This document shows, piece by piece, positions 38,219 to 40,113 of a stretch of 64,000 nucleotides of DNA. Position 1 is the stretch's first letter, and each line of letters begins with the position of its first letter. The stretch lies in the NCBI GenBank assembly GCA_001600455.1, contig BCKC01000012.1, positions 248,001-312,000 on the forward strand, read 5' to 3'. Both the position numbers and the translations under genes were made by a program. The DNA is from Endocalyx cinctus. Taxonomy: Eukaryota > Ascomycota > Sordariomycetes > Amphisphaeriales > Apiosporaceae. The notes under the pieces were generated by a model. It was not told the DNA's origin. It saw only the letters and a program-made list of their open reading frames with translations, and did no database searches.

Positions 38219-40113
38219 TTAACCCTTGACCTTGTAGATAGCCTCGGCCAGACGTCCGACGTTACCGGTGGTGATACCGGCTACGCTGATGCGGCCGTCC
38301 TTGGTGGCGTAGACGCTGTGCTCCTTGGCGAGTTTGTCCATGAGGGCCGGGTCGAGGCCGGTGTAGGCGAACATGCCGATCTGGGAGGTGATGTGGCTCC
38401 AGTCGTGGGAGCTGCCGAGCTTCTCGAGGTTCTCCTTGAGGAGGGCGCGCATGGTGATGATGCGGTCGGCCATGCCCTTGACCTCGTCGAGCCACTGCGC
38501 GTTGAGGGCCGCGTCGTTGAGGATGGTCGAGGCGATGCGCGCGCCGTGGATCGGCGGGTTCGAGTACAGGGGGCGCACGAGGATCTTGATCTGCGAGTCT
38601 ACCCGCTTCTTCTCCTCGGGGGACGAAGTCACGATGGAGAAGGCACCGACACGCTCACCGTAGAGACCCTAAATTTTTTAGGTTTTAGCTGTGTTATCCT
38701 TCTTGACTAAGGGGGGATACACAAGGACAGAAAAAAAAGAGGAAAACATACCATGTTCTTCGCGAAGCTCTGAGCCAAGCAGATATCGTGACCCTGCTCA
38801 ACAAAGTATCGTACGGCGAAAGCGTCCTTGTCGGTGTTACCGCTGGCGAAACCCTGGTAGGCCATGTCGAAGAAGGCGTAGTGACCCTGGGCCTTGACAG
38901 CGTCGCTGATCTCCTTCCACTGCTCCATAGTCGGGTCGACGCCGGTCGGGTTGTGAGCGCAGGCGTGGAAGAGGAACATGCTTCCCTTGGGGGCGGCCTT
39001 GATGTCGGCGAGCATGCCCTCGAAGTCGAGACCGATGGTCTTCTTGTCGTAGTACCGGTACTGCTGGACCTTGAGGCCGGCGTCGTTGAAGACGGCCTTG
39101 TGGTTGGCCCACGTCGGGGTGGGTATGTAGATGGTCTTGTCGCCGGGGTAGAAGCGCTGGAGGAAGGCGGCGGCGATTCGGAGGGCGCCGGTACCGGAGA
39201 TGGACTGGGTGATGGCTATGCGGTCGAGGGCGGGGGAGTCCTTGCCGTAAGCGAGGACGGCGGCGGCTTTGGTGAACTCGGGGACACCGGTGATGCCGGC
39301 ATATTCCTTGTTCAGACCGGCGGATACGACCTTCTGCTCGGCGGCTCTGACGGAGGGGAGGACGTAGGGTTTACCCTGGTCATCTCGGTAGGCACCAACA
39401 CCTATATATACATGGAACATGAAATTAGATATTCATTTTAGGCGGATTGGTATAACATGCCTGTTTGACCAATTGAATAAGGTAGCATAGAGGGGAAGGA
39501 GACCTACCTAGGTTGATCTTCTGCTCGAAAGAGTCGGCCTTGAAAGCTTCGGTGATACCTGCATGACAATATATGAGCAATGCAACATAGTTATGGTTTA
39601 TAATTCGTGGAACCAAAACAAGAAGGTATAGAATGGTTTAATAGGGGGGGGTAGAATAGAAGCGGGAAGGAATTGGAGAGAGAGAAGAAAGACATACCGA
39701 GAATAGCCTGAGTAGCAATTTTAATAACGATGTATTAACGACGGTAGAACAGTCACGATTAACATAGCTTAATGCAGAGATAATGCATATTATATGTACG
39801 AAGGGTTCGGTGGAAAAAAGGGCTAAAAACTTACATCCTACATTATTTTCACATGTTAATAAATATATAAAAAGAAAGCATAAGCTCTTTATTTCTTCTC
39901 TTTTTATGATAGTGATTATCGTCATCATAGCTCTTTTTTTTTTTTTTTTGCTATGACCGACTACGAGCACGAGCACGAGGGCAAATAACTTACAGGTGGA
40001 CCTTGAGCAACGTTAGCCCAGGTGGATCCAGCTCGGACGGCTTGAAAAGAAAGAGTCGAAGCTTTGTTAGAAGCAGCAGCTCGACGGGTGACAAGACGAA
40101 CTGATTGCATCAT
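38219..40113 (-). CDS. AAT1: Mitochondrial aspartate aminotransferase with two micro-exons
   Basis: Six exons on the minus strand (40113-39994, 39837-39835, 39707-39698, 39558-39508, 39401-38752, 38668-38219) sum to 1284 bp, or 427 residues. Exon 1 encodes an Arg/Ala/Ser-rich presequence and WANVAQGPP. A 3-nt exon (GAT, Asp) and a 10-nt exon (AILG) restore the conserved GPPDAILGITEAFKAD. Exon 5 carries GVGAYRDD, HACAHNPTGVDP and SQSFAKNM, where K276 is the PLP lysine, and exon 6 begins GLYGERVGAF. The C-terminal RPLYSNPP and SVAGIT segments are intact. The enzyme interconverts aspartate plus 2-oxoglutarate with oxaloacetate plus glutamate, serving the malate-aspartate shuttle in the matrix. 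Function is firm. The two micro-exons rest on splice consensus and family alignment. Confidence 0.94.
39698..39707 (-). other. 10-nt micro-exon (exon 3) of aspartate aminotransferase
   Basis: The bases GCTATTCTCG are bounded by a CTCAG acceptor and a GTATGT donor. With the first two bases of exon 4 they code AILG, which the family has at this place. Confidence 0.85.
39835..39837 (-). other. 3-nt micro-exon (GAT) of aspartate aminotransferase
   Basis: On the minus strand the sequence reads TAG, GAT, GTAAGT, so a lone Asp codon sits between a perfect acceptor and a perfect donor. A TTAAC branch-like site lies about 18 nt before the acceptor. Including it gives GPPDAILG, the conserved mitochondrial motif; skipping it deletes one residue in frame. 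Confidence 0.75.

Follow-up and report, generated by a model that had tools for sequence, protein, structure and literature searches.

In the CYP621A P450 genes of Fusarium, a 1-nt exon is backed by RNA reads from two species, and according to the authors the gene-model transcripts are wrong at this exon with one exception (PMC12940212). Plant micro-exons of 1-15 nt are conserved and pervasively unannotated, with a PSI >0.5 for most coding ones, and they include an adjacent pair of 5 and 12 nt in rice as well as 1-nt exons with GTRAGT donors (PMC8831610). Among insects, a 3-bp micro-exon of Drosophila homothorax is conserved, and other 3-bp exons are cited in that report (PMC7392893). Here we describe a tandem pair of 3 and 10 nt in the predicted mitochondrial aspartate aminotransferase (mAAT) gene of Endocalyx cinctus. 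Like the Fusarium case, it concerns an ultra-small exon of a filamentous ascomycete that encodes part of a conserved motif and is required to assemble the protein, but the Fusarium exon is of 1 nt and described in one genus, whereas the mAAT exons stand in tandem in a housekeeping enzyme. The pair shares with plant micro-exons its frequent absence from annotation and its adjacent arrangement and, apparently, its conservation and usual inclusion. The Fusarium exon was shown by RNA reads and the plant micro-exons were validated by RNA-seq and RT-PCR, whereas the mAAT pair is known from sequence and from traces in seven classes. As at homothorax, where the 3-nt exon lies between CAG and donors of the GTAAGT/GTGAGT type, the smaller exon has 3 nt; the homothorax 3-bp exon arises by alternative splicing of a 48-bp exon, whereas a stand-alone GAT is the sole motif-restoring solution found at mAAT. 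The pair also resembles Xlr2 of Trichoderma virens, a micro-exon absent from the consensus gene model of a filamentous ascomycete, although that exon has 20 nt and is glucose-regulated (PMC11121469), and mAAT, with 3 + 10 nt, has given no sign of regulation so far.

The gene lies within a window of 64,000 nt (the whole stretch of DNA analysed; contig BCKC01000012.1), on the minus strand from 40113 to 38219. Six exons and five introns, all GT-AG, give a CDS of 1284 nt with stop, encoding a 427-aa product, over a genomic start-to-stop span of 1895 nt including introns. In window coordinates, and in order of transcription, the features are as follows.

39994 to 40113, minus strand: exon 1, 120 nt, a presequence-like N-terminal stretch and the start of the enzyme, ending ...QGPP and followed by the donor GTAAGT.
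39838 to 39993, minus strand: intron 1, 156 nt, GTAAGT...TGTAG, with a branch-like ATTAAC whose A is 19 nt from the end.
39835 to 39837, minus strand: exon 2, the 3-nt micro-exon, a lone GAT that encodes residue 41 (Asp) of the 427 and is flanked by two phase-0 introns.
39708 to 39834, minus strand: intron 2, 127 nt, GTAAGT...CTCAG.
39698 to 39707, minus strand: exon 3, the 10-nt micro-exon GCTATTCTCG, encoding Ala-Ile-Leu and the first base of Gly, followed by GTATGT.
39559 to 39697, minus strand: intron 3, 139 nt, GTATGT...TGCAG.
39508 to 39558, minus strand: exon 4, 51 nt, ITEAFKADSFEQKINL.
39402 to 39507, minus strand: intron 4, 106 nt, GTAGGT...ATAG.
38752 to 39401, minus strand: exon 5, 650 nt, the aminotransferase core.
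38669 to 38751, minus strand: intron 5, 83 nt, GTATGT...TTTAG.
38219 to 38668, minus strand: exon 6, 450 nt including TAA.

Exon 1 ends in GGTCCACCT/GTAAGT (slashes mark splice boundaries), and both micro-exons, a term used here for internal exons of no more than 30 nt, are flanked by canonical AG and GT, as TAG/GAT/GTAAGT and CAG/GCTATTCTCG/GTATGT, so that the predicted spliced order is GGTCCACCT-GAT-GCTATTCTCG-GTATCACC. An earlier note on this DNA had proposed the lone GAT (39837-39835) between a TAG acceptor and a GTAAGT donor and a next exon of 10 nt (39707-39698); all its coordinates were recovered when re-derived from the sequence, the 10-nt exon belongs to the frame-restoring structure, and reconstruction with both micro-exons yields the conserved motif and the 1284-nt CDS that it had announced. 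Leaving out the GAT exon keeps the frame (1281 nt, product PPAILG), and leaving out the 10-nt exon, alone or together with GAT, causes a frameshift and an early stop; thus in-frame loss is possible for the Asp exon only. Branch-like YTRAY sites are found near the ends of introns 1, 2 and 4, and none was found within the terminal 70 nt of intron 3 or intron 5. Intron 1 also contains a run of 16 A (window 39949-39934, minus strand).

To judge chance, we enumerated all GT-AG structures between exons 1 and 4 that had a single internal exon or a pair of them (60 nt or less each), introns no shorter than 40 nt, and their first donor no more than 180 nt from the ATG. This gave 1671 structures, 208 of them in frame and open, and the motif PPD-x-ILG was restored by exactly one of the 1671, the proposed 3-nt + 10-nt structure. 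The same sole solution was obtained when GC donors and 30-nt introns were also allowed (10,724 structures); with AT donors allowed too, 2 of 81,610 structures restored the motif, the second with residues inserted after AILG. Dinucleotide shuffling of the 260-nt gap produced YAG-GAY-GTRNGT in 0 of 20,000 sequences and the looser AG-GAY-GT in 125 of 20,000. Across both strands of the 44.76-Mb genome, YAGGAYGTAAGT occurs in 9 copies, one of them at the mAAT locus, compared with 15 copies of its reversed control, so that the motif is not enriched genome-wide; at the genome rate, about 3e-5 copies are expected on one strand of a 286-nt stretch. The GAT motif is therefore rare and forms no genome-wide class, and from enumeration, shuffles and genome count its occurrence by chance at the right place, on the right strand and in the right phase is not plausible.

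The assignment of the gene to mitochondrial aspartate aminotransferase, also made in the earlier note, is borne out by the best solved-structure match, the mitochondrial enzyme 3hlm (E 1.2e-169, query residues 30-425). At the micro-exon site this alignment sets GPPDPILG against GPPDAILG of the window's product, and the Asp is present in each of the three alignments to solved mitochondrial enzymes that were examined (3hlm, 8skr and 5ax8). Residues 1-29, upstream of the match, are basic and Ser/Ala-rich by eye, and in a structure prediction pLDDT is below 50 for residues 1-47, too uncertain for assigning a role to the Asp. The best annotated relatives among the matches listed are Xylariales such as Hypoxylon sp. 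FL1284, with 89% identity across 96% of the query, and Annulohypoxylon, with 86-87%.

Two paralogues in the same genome were read. In the first (L001; G000:C10, 1366-1782, minus strand) PPDAIFDVTRRYLAD is read in a single uninterrupted frame, and therefore the micro-exons are not shared by it; L001 is a second aspartate-aminotransferase-like gene, with PPDAIFDVTRRYLADQDPNKVNLGQGTYRDENGKPW unbroken. The second, L002, has an open frame with NPYDEAYLVNQALA. A further candidate, L003, was discarded as the window's own exon 5.

For comparison with relatives, three protein searches, taking the best 120 of about 7990 matches each, gave 281 distinct homologues, which are the nearest relatives of the three queries and no random sample. 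These were split into 196 proteins that have a record at NCBI, for the most part gene models, and 85 known solely from lgn, jgi, ena and merc, sources that we took to be contigs assembled from public reads; the source of each protein and the length of its contig were transcribed by hand from the match lists. All comparisons were read from protein sequences clustered at 90% identity, in which minor isoforms are masked; a scan of viral contigs with the homologue P0010 yielded no genomic DNA of relatives. Asp precedes xILG in 83 of the 83 contig-derived proteins covering the site, where P0158 and P0174, which have no N-terminus, are excluded, and P0184 (GPADAILG) is scored as Asp-carrying. These include 50/50 proteins from contigs of at most 2000 nt, and 47 of these contigs fall below 1895 nt. 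Being shorter than the gene span, such contigs are probably spliced transcripts, although the relatives' introns may be shorter. Some contig-derived reading frames lie on long contigs that are evidently genomic (5.3 Mb at most, for P0274), which suggests that the gene probably lacks these introns in some clades.

The annotated proteins differ at exactly this place. The motif at the micro-exon site is intact in 88 of the 196, compared with 186 at the intron-4 junction, 194 at the intron-5 junction, and 196 and 193 at two control motifs away from junctions; the corresponding numbers in the contig-derived set are 83, 83, 84, 83 and 84 of 85 (P0158 and P0174 being the two misses at the micro-exon site). 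It is thus mainly at the micro-exons that the models are damaged. Among the matches listed in the search giving Hypoxylon sp. FL1284, 24 of the 86 annotated proteins and all 34 contig-derived ones read PPDAILG. The claim that the 3-nt exon would be missed by nearly all gene finders accordingly holds as to the misses and fails as to 'nearly all'. Some of the 88 intact proteins perhaps come from clades that lost these introns.

The forms of damage can be sorted by the splice sites that they expose. Besides 87 annotated proteins that are intact without any insertion, 44 read PP/AILG, in which only the 3-nt exon is lost, in frame, and 28 read PPVS, PPVC or PPVR, in which both micro-exons (13 nt) are lost and the frame is kept by a 4-nt run into the exon-1 donor (GTAA, GTAT or GTNC), an extension that reaches the second GT of donors such as GTAAGT, GTATGT and GTNCGT. 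This read-through form points to an exon 1 that stops behind the second Pro in the species concerned. In 4 of the 28 (P0097, P0105, P0120 and P0131) exon 4 is missing too, with PPVC or PPVR fused to VGAYRDD and the frame kept. Eight proteins read PPDVS, PPDVC or PPDVR, the Asp codon running straight into a donor, a form that by itself fits an isolated GAT and a GAT ending exon 1 alike; two read QDAILG, in which translation takes in the acceptor in front of the Asp codon, fitting CAG/GAT. In Daldinia both donors are visible, with PPVC in D. vernicosa and PPDVSFTVF in D. grandis. Other forms make up 27 proteins, including P0125, where exon 1 is joined out of frame to exon 4 and which is for that reason not among the 28. 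They also include P0061, which keeps DAILG and then reads through intron 3 and which, like P0225 (DLILG), is counted among the 88 intact, and P0265, the one of the 108 proteins scored as not intact that lacks this part of the protein.

Pairs of near-identical proteins from the two sets show the difference directly. P0016 (2383-nt contig, PPDAILG) is 98.8% identical to P0041, the Hypoxylon fragiforme model, which reads PPVR, and P0094 (1622-nt contig, PPDAILG) is 99.5% identical to P0113, the Sarocladium strictum model, which reads PPAILG; further pairs are P0007/P0028 (96.3%) and P0187/P0199 (95.8%). The contig protein P0184 and the Aureobasidium model P0180 (GPPAILG; 97.4%) differ by more than the Asp.

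The PP/AILG form is found in at least seven classes of Pezizomycotina, in genera such as Sarocladium (Sordariomycetes), Pseudogymnoascus (Leotiomycetes), Aureobasidium (Dothideomycetes), Chrysothrix (Arthoniomycetes), Villophora (Lecanoromycetes), Chaenotheca (Coniocybomycetes) and Cirrosporium (Xylobotryomycetes). Given this spread, an ancient isolation of the Asp codon in leotiomyceta, together with its widespread mis-annotation, is probable. Its presence in the leotiomyceta ancestor would be the simplest reading, and repeated independent isolation of the same codon is less economical. Models of Aspergillus, Penicillium and Talaromyces read DAILG in 10/10 cases among the matches listed, perhaps through loss of those introns.

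We consider it very probable that the nuclear mAAT gene of this near-Xylariales fungus contains a genuine, normally included and inherited pair of micro-exons of 3 and 10 nt; the pair encodes DAIL and part of Gly in the conserved segment GPPDAILG. This reading is built on the sequence, the reading frame, the unique solution, the gene identity, the Asp of the relatives and the pattern of gene-model errors, and we infer splicing in E. cinctus itself, as we do the transcript nature of the short contigs, the age of the pair and the order of splicing.

How such exons would be recognised can be proposed from known behaviour. An exon of 3 nt would be too small to hold the 3′- and 5′-splice-site factors simultaneously; hence the three introns would be recognised singly, across the intron. 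From work on C. elegans and mouse neuroblastoma cells it has been proposed that, where an exon is too small to be defined as such, PRP-40 helps recognition to proceed across the intron, as is normal in yeast; the authors call this model speculative (PMC8378409). Introns 1-3 (127-156 nt, with donors GTAAGT, GTAAGT and GTATGT) may thus be recognised by intron definition, and sequential intron definition fits the arrangement. Splicing would be sequential: introns 2 and 3 could be removed first, creating a larger exon before removal of intron 1, or intron 1 could be removed first, leaving the same GAT/GTAAGT donor for a second step, a donor that would be usable whether or not intron 1 is still in place. 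The introns flanking the micro-exons exceed the 56-nt median given for Fusarium graminearum (PMC12940212).

The alternative that fares best is a variant of this scheme, in which splicing is recursive: intron 1 always leaves first, and the 3-nt GAT exon serves to restore a donor. The junction formed by removal of intron 1, ACCTGAT/GTAAGT, carries a full donor; however, the same sites serve either order of removal, and we regard an obligatory order as possible but doubtful.

In a second alternative GAT is a regulated cassette, with Asp-containing and Asp-lacking mRNAs both present in meaningful amounts and the choice tuning the enzyme. GAT is a whole codon in phase 0-0, so that its skipping is frame-neutral, the exact Asp-less form occurs in the 44 annotated relatives described above, and a precedent for regulation exists in the 20-nt micro-exon of T. 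virens (PMC11121469). Against this, Asp is missing in none of the 83 contig-derived relatives covering the site, where clusters at 90% identity can mask minor isoforms, and many of the wrong annotated forms, such as PPVS, are unobtainable by skipping alone and therefore point to gene-finder error. A regulated cassette thus appears unlikely.

More speculatively, the 3+10-nt pair could descend from the leotiomyceta ancestor and have been kept as a sensor of splicing rate that sets the mAAT level, which we think quite improbable. If it were so, faltering micro-exon recognition (through intron definition and Prp40-type factors) would lead to loss of the 10-nt exon, a break of the frame and destruction of the mRNA, so that the mAAT level would track splicing capacity, with the in-frame Asp-lacking form as a second, weaker product. 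Finally, that GAT is always skipped, with a single 286-nt intron (39993-39708), product PPAILG and a coincidental TAG-GAT-GTAAGT, would agree with the canonical splice sites and open frame of that structure and with the same 44 annotated relatives, but is highly improbable given the Asp in 83/83 contig-derived relatives and in 3hlm, 8skr and 5ax8, the absence of the motif with a GTRNGT donor from 20,000 shuffles, and the near-identical contig/annotation pairs that differ exactly at the site.

The earlier note had placed a 3-nt exon close to the minimum that a spliceosome can define, which needs qualification, since 1-nt exons are reported in Arabidopsis and Fusarium (PMC8831610 and PMC12940212). 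No micro-exon of a fungal aspartate aminotransferase was reported among the matches listed in a literature search covering mostly papers outside subscription, and the main text of the plant micro-exon paper nowhere mentions 'aminotransferase' (PMC8831610). Tiny exons as such are already known; what stands out is the apparent deep conservation in a housekeeping gene and how often the site is mis-annotated. The mAAT gene offers an apparently deeply conserved case of the smallest exons in a fungal housekeeping gene, and its site is a natural test bed for the handling of one-codon exons by spliceosomes of short introns. It is also a simple yardstick of gene-model quality, and many public mAAT models of these fungi need re-annotation there.

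Two individual records may be mentioned in this connection. The Colletotrichum gloeosporioides protein P0048, which represents a large cluster (73 members), has a broken motif, PPLKRCQTG. P0149 of Chaenotheca gracillima is recorded as '39S ribosomal protein L24, mitochondrial', and by sequence it is an aspartate aminotransferase (PF00155, 81% to Botrytis); the name of this record looks wrong.
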